DNA of 64,000 nucleotides from Thermoplasmatales archaeon BRNA1 (GCA_000350305.1 CP002916.1:62001-126000); one strand, 5' to 3'. Counted from the stretch's first letter, positions 50,701-59,187 are shown. Translations and numbers: made by a program. The notes: generated from the sequence alone by a model not told the origin.

Positions 50701-52038
50701 ATGGCTAGCCTGTCACAGCGCCTCGAATCACTGCCCATGACGAGGACCACCTGGACGGTCCTCCTGCTCATCGGGATAGGCCTGATGTTCGATGCGATGG
50801 ACCAGGGCATGGTCAGCGGCGTCATCGCTGCCATTGGCGACGACTGGGACCTCTCCAAGTACGAACTGGGATGGCTTACCAGCGCCGGCGTCATAGGGAT
50901 GATCGTCGGGGCCGCAATCTCCGGCGAACTCTGCGACCGTATGGGGAGGCGCACGGTCATATTGTGCACGCTCCTGATCTACAGTGCCGGAAGCTTCCTC
51001 TGCGGTATCGCCACCGAATACTGGATGCTGATGGTGTTCCGTTTCTTGACCGGGTTCGGTCTCGGGGGCGAGTTGCCGGCGGCCATAACGCTTGCGAGCG
51101 AGATCTCACCTCTGAGATCCAGGGGAAGGAATGTAGTCCTGGTGGAGAGCTTCTGGGCATGGGGCTGGCTGGCCGCATCCCTGGTGGCATTCCTGCTCAT
51201 CCCCTCGCACGGATGGCGCGTGGCGTTCTTCGCCGGTGCCGTACCCGCTCTGTTCGCCGCCATCCTCCGTTTCAAGGTACCGGAATCGCCGAGGTACCTG
51301 GAGCTCAACGGCAGGAGGGAAGAGGCCGAGAGGATCGTAGGTGTCTTCGAGAGGGCGGCGGGCGTGGAACCCGTTGCGGACGACACCCCGGCCGAGAAGG
51401 CGGAGAAGAGGCCCTGGTACGTGGAGTTCAAGGGCCTGTGGGGAAGGGAGAACATCCGTTCGACCGCGGTGCTGTGGGTGATCTGGTTCGGCATAAACTT
51501 CGGATATTACGGTTTCGTACTGTGGACGCCCACCCTCCTCATCGACCGCGGTTTCGACATTACGAAGAGCTTCGGGTACACCGTCATCATGTGCCTGGCA
51601 CAGTTGCCGGGTTACTTCAGCGCCGCCTATCTGATCGAGAGGATGGGGCGTAAACCGACGCTTATAATGTTCTTCCTCGGGACCGCCGCCGCGGCATGGT
51701 TCTTCGGTCACGCCGATTCGGACACCTCGATCCTCGCCGCCGGATGCGTGCTCTACTTCTTCGCCCTCGGTGCGTGGGGAAGCATCTATTCGTACACACC
51801 GGAGGTCTATCCCACGGACGTCCGCGGATCGGGAAGCGGCTGGGCGTCGGCGTTCGGACGCGTAGGCGCCTTCATCGCGCCGTTCGTCGTCCCGGTGCTC
51901 TACAACGCTTATGGGACGGAACAGGGTTTCGCCCTGGTGTTCAGCGTACTGGCGGCGGCCTTCGCGGTGGTCGCCATCGTCATCGCCGTATTCGGCAAGG
52001 AGACCATGGGAAGCAGCCTCAGGGACTCCACGAAGTGA
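50701..52038 (+). CDS. MFS transporter (sugar/organic-acid porter type)
   Basis: 445 residues from the ATG at 50701. 12 helices. MFS signatures: DRMGRRTVILC after TM2, VPESPRYLELNGRREEAERI after TM6, and PTDVRGSGSGWASAFGRVG near TM11, together typical of metabolite:H+ symporters. Asp in FDAMDQGMVSG lies in TM1. Substrate unknown. It is the last gene before the integration hot spot. Confidence 0.9.
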   Translation: MASLSQRLESLPMTRTTWTVLLLIGIGLMFDAMDQGMVSGVIAAIGDDWDLSKYELGWLTSAGVIGMIVGAAISGELCDRMGRRTVILCTLLIYSAGSFLCGIATEYWMLMVFRFLTGFGLGGELPAAITLASEISPLRSRGRNVVLVESFWAWGWLAASLVAFLLIPSHGWRVAFFAGAVPALFAAILRFKVPESPRYLELNGRREEAERIVGVFERAAGVEPVADDTPAEKAEKRPWYVEFKGLWGRENIRSTAVLWVIWFGINFGYYGFVLWTPTLLIDRGFDITKSFGYTVIMCLAQLPGYFSAAYLIERMGRKPTLIMFFLGTAAAAWFFGHADSDTSILAAGCVLYFFALGAWGSIYSYTPEVYPTDVRGSGSGWASAFGRVGAFIAPFVVPVLYNAYGTEQGFALVFSVLAAAFAVVAIVIAVFGKETMGSSLRDSTK

Positions 52039-52090: not shown

Positions 52091-52106
52091 ATGGCGGGCC
52101 TGAAGG
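52091..52106. repeat. Third copy of the tRNA-Lys 3'-end att core
   Basis: ATGGCGGGCCTGAAGG, identical for 16 bases to 53935-53950 and 59110-59125. With the copy at 53935 it frames a 1.84 kb block containing the AbiE pair. Confidence 0.8.
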
Positions 52107-52155
52107 AACCCGCACGGTAGACTTATCGATTTTCCAGGAGTTTCGAAGTTCGGAT

Positions 52156-52204
52156 TATTCTAACTATTCTAACTATTTCAACAGCCAGTGGACTAGTTGG
52201 AATA
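52156..52204. repeat. Direct 9-base repeats with an inverted copy
   Basis: TATTCTAAC at 52156 and 52165, TATTTCAAC at 52174, and the inverted GTTGGAATA at 52196-52204. Same plan as the Fic operators but another sequence. It lies behind the AbiEii gene, near the att copy. Confidence 0.6.
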
Positions 52205-52224
52205 ACGATAGATATGGGACAGCA

Positions 52225-53220
52225 TCATGGCTGATGTTTGATTTGACCCAACTCCGTCTCAAGTTCCGAGATGTCCTTCAGAACATCATCGAAATTAGGA
52301 GGATTGCCGAATATCATGTCTGCCATCGAACCGTAGTCTTTTCTCAGGGCGGAACGTACGGAGTCCGGTGGGACGAGTTTCAGAATGCCTTCACATGCAA
52401 GATCGTATCCGTAAGATGTACCGGGGAAGAAGCGCGATTTGAATTCAGCAATCTCCTTTATCAGGTCAGGGTTCGGCGATAATTTGTCGTATCTGTGAAT
52501 GCACGAGACGTCGTAATAGTGTCTCGAATACCTCTCAGGTACTTTTTCCCTGCATGCAACCGTATGCAGAATCACCAGTTTCTCGCAGAATGTACGTTCC
52601 AAGGATAGTGTCCGCACGCTTATTTGCTCCCCGCATAGTTTCGGGAGTCTTTCTGCAACATATGATTGGATGCTTCTTGATACGGGTGAACCCCATAGCC
52701 CCCTGGGGCCGATTTCCATCAGAATCTCATTTTTTATCGTCGAAGTATCGAATGCGCAGGGGTACCTGAATATGATGTTGGGACCGTCGGTTTCAATCTC
52801 GAATTCTTTCTTCAAAATCTTGTCTAGATCGGATTTCATCCTGGGGCGCATATGCTCAAGAAGGAACATTTCGGTCTTGGCCATCAATTGATCATTGGAC
52901 TGTTCCTGTTTTTTCCTTGTTTTTTCTTCTTTGGGGCCTTCTTCGGGATACCCGAGCTCGCGCCAGTCCAGAAGAAGATCAATGTCCTCGGAGAATCTAC
53001 GGATTGCTCCGTAGCATTTGGATAGGCTGGTGCCCCCTTTGAACAGCAACCTGTGTTTCCAAGGAGAGTCCGAGTACAGGTATTTCAGCATCAACGAAAC
53101 CCAGAAATCCTTCTCAATCAACGAAGGCGGAATGTTCATTTCCGAACCCACCTGCAGAAATATGTCTCTGAGGTCCGAGTCGGGAAGGTTTGCTATCTCA
53201 TAGTGGCTGTACACGGGCAA
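52225..53220 (-). CDS. AbiEii-type nucleotidyltransferase toxin
   Basis: 331 residues. The nucleotidyltransferase core reads LLFKGGTSLSKCYGAIRRF followed by SEDIDLLLDW (residues 58-86): GG-S-LSK and D-x-D motifs of DUF1814/AbiEii (MenA-like). Such toxins add nucleotides to tRNA 3' ends and are neutralised by AbiEi at the level of transcription (type IV). It overlaps the antitoxin gene by 23 bases. More AT-rich than the neighbouring core genes, as expected for a mobile cassette. Confidence 0.92.
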   Translation of the reverse strand: MPVYSHYEIANLPDSDLRDIFLQVGSEMNIPPSLIEKDFWVSLMLKYLYSDSPWKHRLLFKGGTSLSKCYGAIRRFSEDIDLLLDWRELGYPEEGPKEEKTRKKQEQSNDQLMAKTEMFLLEHMRPRMKSDLDKILKKEFEIETDGPNIIFRYPCAFDTSTIKNEILMEIGPRGLWGSPVSRSIQSYVAERLPKLCGEQISVRTLSLERTFCEKLVILHTVACREKVPERYSRHYYDVSCIHRYDKLSPNPDLIKEIAEFKSRFFPGTSYGYDLACEGILKLVPPDSVRSALRKDYGSMADMIFGNPPNFDDVLKDISELETELGQIKHQP

Positions 53221-53800
53221 TCCTCTGAAGCTCCCTCTTTATCCAGGGTGCGGTCCTGCTGTATTCGGCGGAATCCATCGCAATTCCGTGTGAACGGACA
53301 TATTCAGACAGTGTACGGATGTCATCTTGGGTGAGGTTTCCATTTCCTTTGGTCTTCAAAGCGTGAATAAGTATCGCCAATCCGTCCGAATCAGGCATGT
53401 CTTTGGATCCCCTGTGTCTAAGCTCGATGTTGGTGTCCCCTATGTTGTATGTCTTGTAGGGCCCATCGGAATAGTATATGAAACGAGAAGGCACTTGGGT
53501 CGAAAGTCCTGTCAGGTTAAGACACGAATTCCCTCCGGGGATGATGTGCCAGCCATTATTCCTCGCAATCGCATAGGCAACATCGTCCGGATTGTAGGGT
53601 ATCATGATTCCCAAGAGTTTGTTGTATTTGGGCTTGTAATAAATCCCGCGCATGATACGTACGATGCGACCTCTTTTACATGCAACAGATAGTTGAGTCT
53701 TTATAGAATCGGAACTGGAATCATTGAGTATGTCGCATATCGCAAAAACGGTCCCGTCATCGATGGAATCTACGTATTTTGCGACCGCTCCCGATTTCAT
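53198..53800 (-). CDS. AbiEi-type antitoxin / transcriptional regulator
   Basis: 200 residues. N-terminal winged helix: FAICDILNDSSSDSIKTQL, then RGRIVRIMRGIYYKPKYNK (the AbiEi wing). Middle: VAYAIARNNGWHIIPGGNSC. AbiEi represses the operon by binding inverted repeats in front of it. A TATA-like CTATATATG lies about 22-30 bases upstream of the ATG at 53800. Confidence 0.9.
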   Translation of the reverse strand: MKSGAVAKYVDSIDDGTVFAICDILNDSSSDSIKTQLSVACKRGRIVRIMRGIYYKPKYNKLLGIMIPYNPDDVAYAIARNNGWHIIPGGNSCLNLTGLSTQVPSRFIYYSDGPYKTYNIGDTNIELRHRGSKDMPDSDGLAILIHALKTKGNGNLTQDDIRTLSEYVRSHGIAMDSAEYSRTAPWIKRELQRIARVQPL

Positions 53801-54046
53801 TATATCACCGAATATTTACTTTCTATATATGTAAAACATTAATTAATGATATAAAACTGGTGATGGTGGGATTGCAATATGGAAGGAATGAAATGGCGAA
53901 TGAATAACTTCAAAGTCGACAGAAGGTCAAAGAAATGGCGGGCCTGAAGGGATACCATACATCGTTAGCCAGTGAGCTCGAAACTTTTTCTATTAGGGGC
54001 CGATTTTTCGGCCATAGCGGACTCGAACCTTCAGTCGTAAAGCTAT

Positions 54047-55150
54047 ATGGTTTCGAACCCCATATCTTCACCCTCTTCCCGCTATCGTTTCAAGGGGAAG
54101 AAAGGGGGTGAATGGGATTACGGGACCGAGCTGATGAAGGCCCTCTATTCGGGCAGATCGTCCCTGACGGACGAGTCCATTCAGGCCGATTTTCTCGATT
54201 GGATCCTCACGGACAAGGTCAATGTGTTCCGTAACCGGGAGACGAGGGAATTGGTATACGCACTCGTCTCCAAGCGTGGTAATTCTCTCTATGCTGCGAA
54301 GAAGAACGAGACCCTCAATGAGATCATCGAGGCCGCGAATAATTCGGTACTCGATTTCCCGGTCGATGGTCTTCGTGACAGTAAATTCAGGATGACGAAG
54401 GTCTTGTTCTTCACTCTGACTTTCTCGCATAAGAGATATTCCCAAGAGGAAGCTTGGTCGATGCTCAGGTCCACCCCCATCGAGGATTGTTCCAATCAAT
54501 GCGGGATTCTCAATAAGTTTGGTGCCAACATTACGAGCATCTTTGGAGGCAATGGGAAGCTTACATGCAAGGAATCGGACAGTCGCGGTTATCCTGCTCC
54601 TCACGTGATTGTAATCTTGGACCGCCCCGTCTTTGTGAAGAGGCATATCGGGAAGGATGGTACAGTCTCATGGAGGCTCGCAGATAGGCATTTTCTCCAG
54701 CGTGTCGGCAAGGACCTTGCCTCCAGATCCAAATCGTGGAATGATGTTGAAGCTGCTAACGCCAACAATCCGATCTGGCCTTATGGCCTTATGGATGTTC
54801 AGGGAATTGTTAAGGATTCCAAGTTCGGCAGGTTCTCTAACGGTTTCACATATCTTTTCAAGTATCTCATCAAGACTGTATCCCTCGAGAAGTTCCCTCA
54901 GCTGAACGATCTCTCATCGTTCACGGATTATTCAGACAAATCCCTTCGCACGATGATGTTCACCCATCTGGGGAACAAGTGTTTCAGGACAAGGGACATA
55001 GTGTTCGGGAAGGCCTTCAAGGATCGTCTGGGTATTATGAAGAAAGAACCCTATTCTCCTTCAGGTCAATGGGAGAGATTGAAGACAATTCCCGAGACTT
55101 TGGCGGAGTATATCCAACGTAGATCCTCGGAAAAATCGGATCCCTCGTGA
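54047..55150 (+). CDS. HUH-like replication initiator of the element
   Basis: 367 residues. FFTLTFSHKRY near 122 fits motif 1 of rolling-circle Rep proteins, YPAPHVIVILDRP near 184 resembles the His motif with only one His, and YLFKYLIKT near 268 offers the Y-xx-K catalytic pattern twice in tandem. No helicase domain. It would nick an origin of the element. The match is to motifs only, so a related relaxase is possible. Confidence 0.65.
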   Translation: MVSNPISSPSSRYRFKGKKGGEWDYGTELMKALYSGRSSLTDESIQADFLDWILTDKVNVFRNRETRELVYALVSKRGNSLYAAKKNETLNEIIEAANNSVLDFPVDGLRDSKFRMTKVLFFTLTFSHKRYSQEEAWSMLRSTPIEDCSNQCGILNKFGANITSIFGGNGKLTCKESDSRGYPAPHVIVILDRPVFVKRHIGKDGTVSWRLADRHFLQRVGKDLASRSKSWNDVEAANANNPIWPYGLMDVQGIVKDSKFGRFSNGFTYLFKYLIKTVSLEKFPQLNDLSSFTDYSDKSLRTMMFTHLGNKCFRTRDIVFGKAFKDRLGIMKKEPYSPSGQWERLKTIPETLAEYIQRRSSEKSDPS

Positions 55151-55235
55151 ACAATTTTCATTCTTTTTTCATAGCATCCATTAGCGAACGCTATCTTCTC
55201 TTTTCTCCTTCTTCATAACCTACCCCTATCTCGTG

Positions 55236-55363
55236 TCGGCCGAAGGCCGAAACAACAAGGCTGAGTGCGGTAGCCCGCGACGGCTCTGCCGGCGGGCGAC
55301 GCACCAGCCGCTTTACCCCGAGCGTAGCGAGGGGGAGCAGGGCGGAGCGAAGCGTAGCCCTGC
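55236..55363. other. Tandem hairpin region, candidate replication origin of the element
   Basis: Four stems in 128 bases: TCGGCC-GAA-GGCCGA (55236-55250), GCCCGC...GCGGGC (55273-55297), CCCC...GGGG around AGCGTAGC (55316-55334) and GCAGGGC...GCCCTGC (55337-55363). The words GCGTAGCG and GCGAAGCG recur. It is non-coding, more GC-rich than the genes around it and directly follows the Rep-like gene. It could also be a structured RNA. Confidence 0.5.
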
Positions 55364-55397
55364 CATACGACTTGATAGATAGTACACGAATTAAAAC

Positions 55398-56363
55398 TCA
55401 AAGGCCTGGAGTATCAATGTGCATGACCTCTGAGAAGACTTCATCATCTAGAGAGTCAATAGCTTTGGATATACTTTTTTCAGTAGTCGGAGGTTCGTTC
55501 AATTCAAAATTACATAGTGGTTTTAGATGGTCATATAACTGTGTCAAAGGCATAGTATGTCTTATCTGAATCAATTTTACATTGTGTTTTTCGGCAGTAT
55601 CGTAGATATTTGTTTTTGCACCTACAATGTCGAATATTACAACCCCTTTGGGCCCAACACGGTTTATTTTATCTTCAATCACTTCTTGATTTCCACTCGC
55701 AATTAGTCCAAGTTCGATTCTTATCCTTCCTCTTTTGGTTTCTACTTCTGCATCGGTTTCTCTCTCCACTTCATTATCTCTTTGAAGATCAACCCAGAAG
55801 TTTTTGTTTTCCGTAAATCCTAGAAGAGTGAGCATTGATTTTAGAAGGACACGTTCAACCCATTTACCATTCTTGGATTTGTCTGATCCCCTAATGGTTA
55901 ATGCCGCAGAACCACACATCATCATAATCCAAACATTATCCAACTCTTTCTCCCTTTTAATGGAAGTAAGGGTGTCTGTTAATTGTTCTTCTAGTTCGGA
56001 TAAAAGGGAAGGAAGTTCCTTTGTGTTACCATCAATGTTATTGAATGTTTTTTGTGTTAAGCCAAGCAACCAATATTGAAGATATTTTTCTTCTGTAGTT
56101 TTTTTCTTTTTATCTAGGAGAGCCGCTAGCATTTTTTCCTTCCATGCCAGTCCATATTCTTTTCTTGCAACTTCTACGACATCAGACAACCACAGATCTG
56201 TGAGTGCAATTTTACATTTAGTATTGAATTCAGTTATTGCGCGATAGTTTCCGCCACAAAGTAAGTGCTTGGTCAGCTTTTTCAAAGAATCTGCGGTATA
56301 TGCATCAGAGATGTAGACATTTCCTTTTAACCACGTTTCATATTTTTGAATTTGAAAATCCAT
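55398..56363 (-). CDS. Type II restriction endonuclease, CfrBI-like
   Basis: 321 residues. Likely catalytic part near 200-245: EVERETDAEVETKRGRIRIE, with acidic residues and E-x-G-L followed by EDKINRVG and KGVVIFD, a PD-(D/E)xK-like arrangement. It resembles the CfrBI family as I remember it. The methyltransferase gene ends 1 base before its start on the same strand, which secures the restriction role. AT-rich. Recognition site unknown. Confidence 0.7.
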   Translation of the reverse strand: MDFQIQKYETWLKGNVYISDAYTADSLKKLTKHLLCGGNYRAITEFNTKCKIALTDLWLSDVVEVARKEYGLAWKEKMLAALLDKKKKTTEEKYLQYWLLGLTQKTFNNIDGNTKELPSLLSELEEQLTDTLTSIKREKELDNVWIMMMCGSAALTIRGSDKSKNGKWVERVLLKSMLTLLGFTENKNFWVDLQRDNEVERETDAEVETKRGRIRIELGLIASGNQEVIEDKINRVGPKGVVIFDIVGAKTNIYDTAEKHNVKLIQIRHTMPLTQLYDHLKPLCNFELNEPPTTEKSISKAIDSLDDEVFSEVMHIDTPGL

Positions 56364-57503
56364 TTAGTTCACTTCCTCGTAAGCATAACATTCAACATCC
56401 GTATTTTCGTCCAATTCTTTCAGTACTGTATCTTTCATGTAATCATAGTATGATCTTTCTTTATCGATTACCATAAATCTACGGCCCATTTCATGTGCCA
56501 CTTTCGCCACAGTTCCTGTTCCAGCAAATGGATCCAAAACCATATCACCAATGAATGAGTAATATCTTATCACTCTACGACACAATTCTTCAGGGAATGT
56601 GGCGGGATGTAATTTGTTGTTGCTAGGTTTTATCTTCCATATATTGGTGACGTCATATTCGCCCAATATTTTCGAATCTTTTACAGCTTGTTGATCATAA
56701 TGATTGCGAATGTTCCAGTCAATCAATTTATCGGTAGATTTGCGATATACCAATACATATTCTGTTACCGGCACAGGTTTATACTGTAGGGGGTTGCGAT
56801 CGGCTTTGAATCTTCTCCCGCGGCCAACATTCCACCCTGCTCCTTCTGGTTTTTCCCAGATAATGTCATCTATGAATTCGAATCCATTGTTTACCATGAT
56901 GGTATTGATATCGAATGGAATCGGGATACGTTTACTTGAGGTATTCCTCGACGTTCTTTTTATCAAAACAGGGGAGATATTGATTATGAAGAATCTTCCT
57001 TCTGAAAGGATATCTCTACAGCGTACGATAACTTTTCTCAATGCATCCAGATATTCTTGATAATCTACATATTCCGAATATTCTGGTTTCGCATTGTAGT
57101 ATGGGGGTGAAGTAAAGACTAATTGTACACTGTTAGGTGGATAATCTTCCAAAACTTTACACGAGTCCCCTAATATGATCTTGTTTCCCATGGGTACTGG
57201 TTTGAATATCTCTTTTTTGCTGGAACGTTTTTTGGGAGCAGCATCTTTGTTTTTTGCAATTCTTTCTTTTATGAGGGTCAATTCCGTTGTCTCAACCACT
57301 TTGGTCAAACCAGAATCTATTCTAATCTCGCCTATATTTTCGGAATTATTTTTGATCATGATAGAAACATGCCAATTATCCGTACGATCATTGTATTCAG
57401 GCAGTCCGATTTTTAACTTTGTATGAATTTCTGGAAAGTACTCTTCTAGCCACGAATTGGCAATCTCTCTTGCAATTTTTGTGGACCCTTTTTTGAAATT
57501 CAT
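56364..57503 (-). CDS. DNA methyltransferase, probably N4-cytosine, of the RM system
   Basis: 379 residues. Order IV...I: IILGDSCKVLEDYP near 107, catalytic TSPPYYNAKPEY near 130 (SPPY suggests m4C), and the SAM motif MVLDPFAGTGTVAKVAHEMG near 330. The N-terminal 95 residues are a separate region, perhaps for specificity. It overlaps the AbrB-like gene upstream by ATGA and touches the endonuclease downstream, so all three form one transcript. Confidence 0.9.
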   Translation of the reverse strand: MNFKKGSTKIAREIANSWLEEYFPEIHTKLKIGLPEYNDRTDNWHVSIMIKNNSENIGEIRIDSGLTKVVETTELTLIKERIAKNKDAAPKKRSSKKEIFKPVPMGNKIILGDSCKVLEDYPPNSVQLVFTSPPYYNAKPEYSEYVDYQEYLDALRKVIVRCRDILSEGRFFIINISPVLIKRTSRNTSSKRIPIPFDINTIMVNNGFEFIDDIIWEKPEGAGWNVGRGRRFKADRNPLQYKPVPVTEYVLVYRKSTDKLIDWNIRNHYDQQAVKDSKILGEYDVTNIWKIKPSNNKLHPATFPEELCRRVIRYYSFIGDMVLDPFAGTGTVAKVAHEMGRRFMVIDKERSYYDYMKDTVLKELDENTDVECYAYEEVN

Positions 57504-57844
57504 TGAATGTCCCTCTTATTTTTCGCAGATTCCCTAAGTTTTTTGTCTCTTTCATATTGCTCTCTTGCAATACGCTCAGCTTCTTCGGGATCATCGACTA
57601 CCGGGAAATTTACTGCAAGATTTTCTTCATAGTCCCGTAGCCTGTCTGCAATTTCATCACCTTCGAAGTCGAAAGTTCCGTATTTTTTGGTATCTTTTTT
57701 CACAATAAGGCGACCCTCGTGTAGGAAGAAAGAGACATAATCTTCGCCTTTTTCAAGGTTCATTAATTCTGCGATCTCCCTGAGGATAGTAATACGCCCG
57801 TTATTGTCATACTTGCTTCTTCCCACGTATTCCATGTTTACCAT
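57500..57844 (-). CDS. AbrB/SpoVT-like regulator, candidate controller of the RM system
   Basis: 114 residues. SpoVT-AbrB fold at the N-terminus: YVGRSKYDNNGRITILREIA, then LIVKK; the rest is a charged helix. The second Met at 57835 is an equally good start. First gene of the RM transcript, and two palindromes lie at its start, so it likely represses its own promoter in the manner of a C protein. Could also be an antitoxin-type protein. Confidence 0.75.
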   Translation of the reverse strand: MVNMEYVGRSKYDNNGRITILREIAELMNLEKGEDYVSFFLHEGRLIVKKDTKKYGTFDFEGDEIADRLRDYEENLAVNFPVVDDPEEAERIAREQYERDKKLRESAKNKRDIQ

Positions 57845-57901
57845 TAATGGTATTGATGGTAATCAATAAATATGTTGCTTGGTATAGATGGTATTGATAC
57901 C
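57839..57901. promoter_or_regulatory. Palindromic operators in the divergent RM/integrase promoter
   Basis: TACCATTAATGGTA (57839-57852) is a perfect palindrome over the AbrB start. GGTATTGATACC (57890-57901) is another, ending just before the plus-strand ATG at 57902. ATGGTATTGAT occurs twice. Both divergent genes may be controlled from here. Confidence 0.7.
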
Positions 57902-58084
57902 ATGAATGGTAAAAAGTTAAAACATTGGTGGAGACACAGGAAGAGCCGTCGTTTCACCGTCATACTCGAGGGGAAGGACGGCTGCATCCATCCTGTTAGG
58001 TTCACTCTTGTCGAACCCGGAAGATATGAACTCGAGAACATGGAAGACCGCCGTGTCTGGCGTTTCGTTCACAGGTGGAACTGA
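57902..58084 (+). CDS. Small basic protein before the integrase (possible excisionase)
   Basis: 60 residues from the ATG at 57902 (an earlier ATG at 57872 would run through the operator). MNGKKLKHWWRHRKSRRFTV is very basic, then a short beta-rich part to FVHRWN. Its stop is 1 base before the integrase start. No family recognised; a DNA-binding excision or regulatory factor is inferred from position and charge. Confidence 0.6.
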   Translation: MNGKKLKHWWRHRKSRRFTVILEGKDGCIHPVRFTLVEPGRYELENMEDRRVWRFVHRWN

Positions 58085-58085
58085 C

Positions 58086-59057
58086 ATGGGAAGGTATCCT
58101 TTCAGCGAATGCATCAACGAGTATCTCCCTGCCGAAGAGGGTCACATCGCCAAATCTACCATGGGGACCACCTCAAGAAGGCTCAGGCAGATTGGCTCGA
58201 TATTCCATTATCTCAGGGGCGAAGGGCTCGTATCTACCGATAATCCCAGAGAGATCACTCCAAAAGACGTCGACGTTTTCGTCGGTTTCCGCAGGAAGAA
58301 CGGCATCAAGAATACCACTCTCCACAAGGATCTGGGTCTTCTCTCGAAGTTCCTCGCATATTTCGATAATGAGGCCGTCGTGAAGTTCAAGGCCAAGTAT
58401 CCCGCACACGTTCCCAAGAAGTACAAGAAACGCGGGGCCTCGATGGAAGAGGATACCGTTCAGAGGATCATCGAGAAAGCCGAAAAGCTCAACATTGCCG
58501 ATTGGCCGAAGATGGAAGCATACGGTGTCGTAGTCATCGCAATCTGCACCGGGCTGAGGCCTCAGGAGCTGCGTATGCTCTCCATCAGGAACGTCCACGA
58601 GACCGATACCTCGGTCGAGATCTATGCGGAGCATGTCAAAGGGGAAGGAACGTACGGATCCGAGAGGTTGGTGGTAGTCCATCCCGACGGAGTCCCCTTC
58701 GTCAAGAAGTTCCTTGCCGCCAGAAGACTCAGGCTCGAGAAAGCGGGCAAGTTCGAGGACTCTCTTTTCCCTCCCCTGAAGAACAAGGGCGGATATCTCA
58801 GTTACAACCGTATCCGCATGCTCAAGACCAAGGTCGAGCAGGATCTTGACATAACCTTCGAGCTCAGGAAGTGCAGGCGTACTTTCGGTCAGCGTGCAAT
58901 CGACGAGGGTCAGGATCTCCATAATGTCTCGTTGGTCATGGGACACACGACTTTGAACACCACGCAGAAGGATTACTGCGACAAGGACGAACGCGTCGCC
59001 GCGAAGGACATGAGAGTCTTCTGGGAAGGGTGCGTCCGCAACAAGAGGTGCGACTGA
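58086..59057 (+). CDS. Tyrosine recombinase (integrase) of the element
   Basis: 323 residues from the ATG at 58086. Core-binding SAM-like domain to about 120, then the catalytic domain: Arg in ICTGLRPQELRML near 165, Lys in AEHVKGEG near 192, ELRKCRRTFGQRA near 270 (H/K-xx-R), MGHTTLNTTQKDYC near 300 with the nucleophile Tyr. The gene is not split by its own att site, so it is not of the SSV type. It is 53 bases from the tRNA-Lys att site. Confidence 0.94.
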   Translation: MGRYPFSECINEYLPAEEGHIAKSTMGTTSRRLRQIGSIFHYLRGEGLVSTDNPREITPKDVDVFVGFRRKNGIKNTTLHKDLGLLSKFLAYFDNEAVVKFKAKYPAHVPKKYKKRGASMEEDTVQRIIEKAEKLNIADWPKMEAYGVVVIAICTGLRPQELRMLSIRNVHETDTSVEIYAEHVKGEGTYGSERLVVVHPDGVPFVKKFLAARRLRLEKAGKFEDSLFPPLKNKGGYLSYNRIRMLKTKVEQDLDITFELRKCRRTFGQRAIDEGQDLHNVSLVMGHTTLNTTQKDYCDKDERVAAKDMRVFWEGCVRNKRCD

Positions 59058-59110
59058 GGGCAAAAATCCGCAAACAATAGAATTTTTTTGAAGCTTGCTG
59101 GACAAAGACA

Positions 59111-59187
59111 TGGCGGGCCTGAAGGGATTCGAACCCTTGGCCGTCCGATTAAGAGTCGGACGCTCTACCTAGCTGAGCTACAGGCCC
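59111..59187 (-). tRNA. tRNA-Lys (anticodon CTT)
   Basis: 77 bases on the minus strand. GGGCCTG acceptor arm pairs with CAGGCCC, discriminator G and encoded CCA (59111-59113). D arm AGCTCAGCTAGGTAGAGC, anticodon stem GTCCGA/TCGGAC with loop CTCTTAA, T arm AAGGGTTCGAATCCCTT. Its 3' end serves as the att core of the neighbouring elements; the gene is intact. Confidence 0.97.

Follow-up and report, generated by a model that had tools for sequence, protein, structure and literature searches.

Two probable stacked elements at one archaeal tRNA-Lys gene: an integrative rolling-circle plasmid and an AbiE-bearing remnant

We analysed a window of 64,000 nucleotides from Thermoplasmatales archaeon BRNA1 (GCA_000350305.1, CP002916.1:62001-126000), in which a tRNA-Lys gene is accompanied by three copies of a short word from its own 3' end, an AbiE toxin-antitoxin cassette and a set of integrase, restriction-modification (RM) and replication genes. 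From its relative Methanomassiliicoccaceae archaeon COG_1, we infer that the host belongs to the order Methanomassiliicoccales and is a methane-producing archaeon. The features of the locus, in window coordinates, are as follows.

52091-52106, plus strand: outer 16-base att copy, bordering the core DNA
52225-53220, minus strand: AbiEii nucleotidyltransferase toxin, intact (PF08843, 1.3e-40; PADLOC AbiEii, 7.6e-90)
53198-53800, minus strand: AbiEi antitoxin of the DUF6088 type, intact (PF19570, 1e-28; PADLOC AbiEi, 1e-44)
53935-53953, plus strand: middle att copy, shared by the inner element (as attL) and the AbiE cassette (as right end)
53969-53993, plus strand: Rep-side (L) arm, CCAG N15 TTCTAT, in inverse orientation to the R arm; same motif at other L ends
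54047-55150, plus strand: replication initiator (Rep), HUH-like, from profile matches of its relatives and alignment
55316-55397, plus strand: candidate double-strand origin, with hairpins, nick motif and a conserved 30-base motif
55398-56363, minus strand: CfrBI-type restriction endonuclease (PF09516, 7e-103, full profile)
56364-57503, minus strand: DNA methyltransferase, N4/N6 type (PF01555, 4.6e-46; PADLOC MTase_II, 4e-125)
57500-57844, minus strand: AbrB/MazE-like DNA-binding protein, first gene of the RM operon (weak PF04014 match)
57872-58084, plus strand: small open reading frame of 70 aa outside known families, just upstream of the integrase
58086-59057, plus strand: tyrosine integrase of 323 aa, XerC/D-like, frame intact (PF00589, 3e-11)
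59077-59101, plus strand: integrase-side (R) arm, ATAGAATTTTTTT...CTGG, 9 bases before the core; same spacing at seven family R ends
59110-59128, plus strand: attR, with the 19-base core common to 53935-53953, within the tRNA 3' end
59111-59187, minus strand: tRNA-Lys, anticodon CTT, the integration target (ARAGORN; Rfam RF00005, 73.7 bits)

The 16-mer ATGGCGGGCCTGAAGG occurs at three sites, all on the plus strand (52091-52106, 53935-53950 and 59110-59125); dinucleotide shuffles of the window gave an expected number of 0, also when one mismatch was allowed. Its 15-base core, TGGCGGGCCTGAAGG, has exactly three copies in the genome (a single contig of 1,461,105 bases), all at the tRNA-Lys locus, and one single-mismatch copy lies elsewhere with no tRNA nearby. 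Because ARAGORN and Rfam call a tRNA at 59111-59187 on the minus strand, the copy at 59110 represents the 3' end of tRNA-Lys(CTT). The insertion left this gene intact, as judged by ARAGORN, and the att core matches the tRNA 3' end at both borders of the inner element. The middle and tRNA-side copies are identical over 19 bases (27 of 29 with the flank included), and identity of the outermost copy to the others is limited to 16 bases. On the core side of the outer copy, an MFS gene ends with its stop at 52038. The G+C content is 58-61% in the core and 44-46% between the outer att copies, and is uneven inside this block, at 38% in the RM genes and 47% in AbiE. Two further candidates were dropped: a tRNA-like fragment at 54011-54070, considered as an older second att, whose sole other genome match falls in a tRNA-free stretch; and the similarity of the left flank of the outer att to the native flanks of three related genomes (G012, G004 and G010), considered as proof of an empty site, which is short and gapped and may involve flanks that are themselves element ends.

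Between the att copies at 52091 and 53935 lies the AbiE cassette of 1.84 kb, whose overlapping intact reading frames for AbiEi and AbiEii constitute an AbiE type IV toxin-antitoxin pair. Examination of this interval revealed no trace of an integrase or Rep and no origin motif. The inner att pair (53935/59110) bounds a 5.2-kb element with integrase, RM genes, Rep and origin. In the integrase, R158, K185, R264, H287 and Y297 are invariant across the family alignment. The endonuclease and methyltransferase genes abut and make up a type II restriction-modification system of the CfrBI type; together with the AbrB-like gene they form one apparent operon. The AbrB-like protein, which has homologues in the elements of G016 and G026, is a probable controller of this operon. 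Between the AbrB-like gene and the small open reading frame (57830-57915) we observed repeated TTACCAT/ATGGTAA inverted repeats, which are operator-like for the RM operon and perhaps also for the integrase. A preliminary description of this DNA had placed an att word at 52091, 53935 and 59110, read the inner pair as the borders of a complete integrative element, and assigned AbiE to the outer interval with no integrase beside it. All three copies were recovered, the gene content of the inner interval agrees with that reading, and the outer interval holds the AbiE pair as described.

Replication of the inner element would depend on its HUH-like Rep. Motif 2 of this protein (GYPAPHVIVIL) has a single His and motif 3 reads YLFKYLIK; in the family alignment, His186 and Tyr269/Tyr273 are invariant and the second HUH His is absent. 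Relatives of Rep match REP_ORF2-G2P at 5e-5 and RepSA at 9e-4, both weak and the latter for one relative only, and the family profile reaches a weak 0.013 against Helraiser (7lcc). Searches of PHROGs and NCBIfam with Rep returned no name, and an AlphaFold model built from a two-sequence alignment was uninformative (pLDDT 34). Downstream of rep lie two G+C-rich hairpins, CCCC-GAGCGTAGCGA-GGGG at 55316-55334 and a second at 55337-55363, followed from 55368 by a nick region beginning CGACTTGATA, where the sequence reads CGACTTGATAGATAGTACACGAATTAAAAC; the nick is predicted between 55374 and 55375. Each of the eight Rep-bearing loci has a 30-base origin motif, which scores 37.2 in the window, against 9.1 for the next best site. 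The element origin resembles that of phiX174, CAACTTG^ATATTAATAAC, in which the annotated start is the A after CTTG. The pC194-type origin, GGATTTGAGCGTAGCGAAAAATCC...TATCTTGATAATAAGGGTAAC (PMC7072734), has in common with it the GAGCGTAGCGA hairpin and the CTTGATA nick motif. Because this conserved pC194/phiX174-like origin accompanies the profile matches of Rep, we regard the inner element as an integrative rolling-circle plasmid. Rep with the same origin was also observed in Methanomassiliicoccaceae archaeon COG_1 (L025, 6968-8392), in a 15-kb locus where no tRNA was called. Searches for free forms found no exact attP junction, integrase or Rep in viral contigs and no Rep in plasmids.

Related genomes carry similar elements at the same position. 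Integrases of one subfamily, 58-64% identical to that of the window, adjoin the same tRNA-Lys in G002, G016, G027, G037 and G058, and tRNA-Arg(TCG) in G026. Paired att words span 7,530 bp in G002, 5,283 bp in G016 and approximately 8.2 kb in G037, and G058 has three att copies with two complete elements in tandem, each encoding integrase and Rep. The Rep gene lies directly inside the left att in the window element, in G002, G016 and G037, and in both G058 elements. Many other genomes lack such an integrase and have just one att word. The backbone genes on the far side, tyrA and a peptidyl-prolyl isomerase gene, are conserved; in G001, about 360 bp separate tyrA from tRNA-Lys, an arrangement that, as read from the sequence, corresponds to an empty site. 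Cargo differs among the members: a type IIG enzyme and a methyltransferase in G002, a type II endonuclease, a methyltransferase and an AbrB-like protein in G016, a type IIG enzyme in the first G058 element, and other genes in G026, G037 and the second G058 element. Defence genes are thus a common cargo in the family, though not a universal one.

Several of these loci have features of their own. A second, divergent tyrosine-recombinase-like gene, about 25-28% identical to the integrase and absent from the window element, directly follows rep in G037 (L091, 10347-11225) and G058 (L092, 10058-10945). Cargo of the G026 element at tRNA-Arg includes an asparagine-synthase-like protein of 576 aa (L093, 13799-15529), which matched nothing in the defence library. 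At the same tRNA-Lys, G012 has a different integrase, 29-32% identical (L072, 4387-7144), together with a gene for a 541-aa protein with no relative seen among the compared loci; the far att border of this G012 element was not found.

The ends of the elements share arm sites. At seven integrase-side ends, ATAGAATTTTTTT...TCTGG, with slight differences, precedes the core by exactly 9 bases, and at the Rep-side ends CCAG follows 18-19 bases past the 15-base core, with TTCTAT (or TCTAT) some 15-17 bases beyond. A matrix built from the R ends was run over a background of 130,655 positions, of which one scored equally, consistent with the window's own R end, included there; in G016 and G037, the matrix picked out relict R ends immediately beyond the left att. 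In G002, an integrase fragment lies beside the left att. On account of these relict ends and this fragment, we conclude that older decaying elements lie outside the young one in G002, G016 and G037. The AbiE cassette has no recognisable R arm (CTGG/ATAGAA) of the resident integrase at its right end, where an R-arm match is equalled by 4% of background sites ungapped and by 0.2% gapped, the gapped value being suggestive. Its left end carries CCAG and then TTATTCTAAC, at a spacing unlike that of the family (+27 versus +18). This 10-mer recurs in G012, within the R end of the tRNA-Lys element that has the different integrase, and in G010; an arm pattern of this kind follows only 0.18% of GC-matched sites. 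The sequence of its ends suggests that the cassette may come from an older element of another integrase type.

We consider it probable (roughly 0.8) that the locus comprises two stacked elements, the inner one a complete integrative rolling-circle plasmid and the outer AbiE segment a CIME-like remnant. The inner element is complete by itself, since the middle att has an L arm at the family position with Rep adjacent. The outer segment displays the features of a CIME: both att ends are kept, integration and transfer genes are absent, and it stands in tandem with an integrase-bearing element. As no recognisable part of an older element other than the att ends is present in the cassette, the remnant reading leans on analogy with the relatives, which makes it probable that the AbiE segment is left over from an earlier element. 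The preliminary description had proposed that defence genes accreted at a tRNA-Lys hot spot, and had named a lack of empty or variable sites in relatives as the observation that would count against it. Five occupied genomes, single-att genomes and the empty G001 site were found instead, and the same-site integrases of the five relatives and the G058 tandem bear out the hot spot. It had also offered the cassette as either a satellite or an older remnant, and of these the remnant gained from the decayed outer remains in relatives and the missing R arm, leaving the satellite less favoured.

As an active satellite, that is, a minimal mobilisable element, the AbiE cassette would receive integrase in trans from the inner element or from one of the G012 type, and would leave either on its own, by excision between 52091 and 53935, or jointly with its neighbour as a composite. 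Retention of both att cores, the intactness of both AbiE genes and the left-end pattern shared with G012 and G010 are in keeping with such a role, and bacterial CIMEs can move with a neighbour (PMC5704250, PMC3146451). However, the right end is without the arm of the resident integrase, the left arm is displaced from the family position and the cassette has no replicon; moreover, no second copy was found among approximately 100 related genomes, in which the closest AbiEii is 46% identical and lies outside any such element. An AbiE relative in G060 was set aside, as it is not within a comparable integrase element. We therefore regard mobility of the cassette as unlikely. More doubtful still is a specific form of it, in which the two-gene toxin-antitoxin unit, equipped with att ends and arm sites of its own, would be a minimal defence satellite of archaea moved by the integrase of neighbouring rolling-circle elements, and tRNA-Lys would serve across the order as a loading dock at which such elements gather. 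Arrival of the whole interval from 52091 to 59110 as a single element, its internal att being accidental or a relict duplicate, would account for the one continuous low-G+C block, and excision of a composite between the outer copies would be mechanistically feasible. However, the middle att has its L arm at the exact family position with Rep directly inside as in the relatives, and G+C differs within the block between the RM and AbiE genes; we consider a single arrival very improbable.

According to the two-element reading, the integrase would bind inverted arms (ATAGAA...CTGG and CCAG...TTCTAT) flanking a core of 15-19 bases, and insertion would rebuild the tRNA gene because the core is copied from the tRNA end. 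Following excision, Rep may nick CGACTTG^ATA at 55374/55375, allowing the circle to replicate. The cargo would be the CfrBI-type RM operon, probably under the AbrB-like protein, and the cargo of the element is presumed to act in defence. An older element at tRNA-Lys would have lost its integrase and replicon while its att ends and toxin-antitoxin pair were retained. We infer the order of arrival, which architecture alone does not give; integration, decay to a CIME and new integration beside the tRNA, the three-step history reported from bacteria (PMC5704250), fits best.

Bacteria are known to accrete both intact islands and islands that lack an integrase (PMC5704250, PMC3146451), and tandem integration is known in archaea (PMC8371274). 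ICESt1/CIME of Streptococcus and the tRNA-Lys island of S. agalactiae (PMC5704250) have the same arrangement of an intact element by the tRNA and an outer integrase-less att segment; unlike these, the present case, known from sequence alone, has an archaeal host and small rolling-circle plasmids without conjugation genes. The Dehalococcoides ssrA islands (PMC3146451) are alike in their tandem order, their direct repeats of an RNA-gene end and the absence of an integration module from some of them, but employ a serine recombinase and a tmRNA target, whereas a tyrosine integrase and tRNA-Lys are involved here. Cryptic integrated elements of Thaumarchaeota (PMC6563490) are likewise small, with integrase and replication genes and in some cases RM cargo; they occupy other hosts and have no signature genes, whereas the present family has a common Rep and origin. 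We found no description of the element family in the literature searched, the coverage of which did not extend to subscription papers, and the family appears to be undescribed. The pSAM2-like elements of actinomycetes combine tRNA integration with a rolling-circle Rep. In comparison, no pSAM2 transfer genes were seen in the element, and the similarity of Rep is marginal (the RepSA match of a single relative).

In summary, our analysis groups the inner element with its relatives as one family of small integrative rolling-circle plasmids from gut-type methanogens and maps their core, arms and origin. The cargo of the family is variable, and several members carry a restriction-modification system. 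The stacking and decay of elements at a single tRNA, a process studied in depth in bacteria, would also build defence islands in these archaea. With arms and origin mapped, direct tests of excision, replication and mobilisation become possible.
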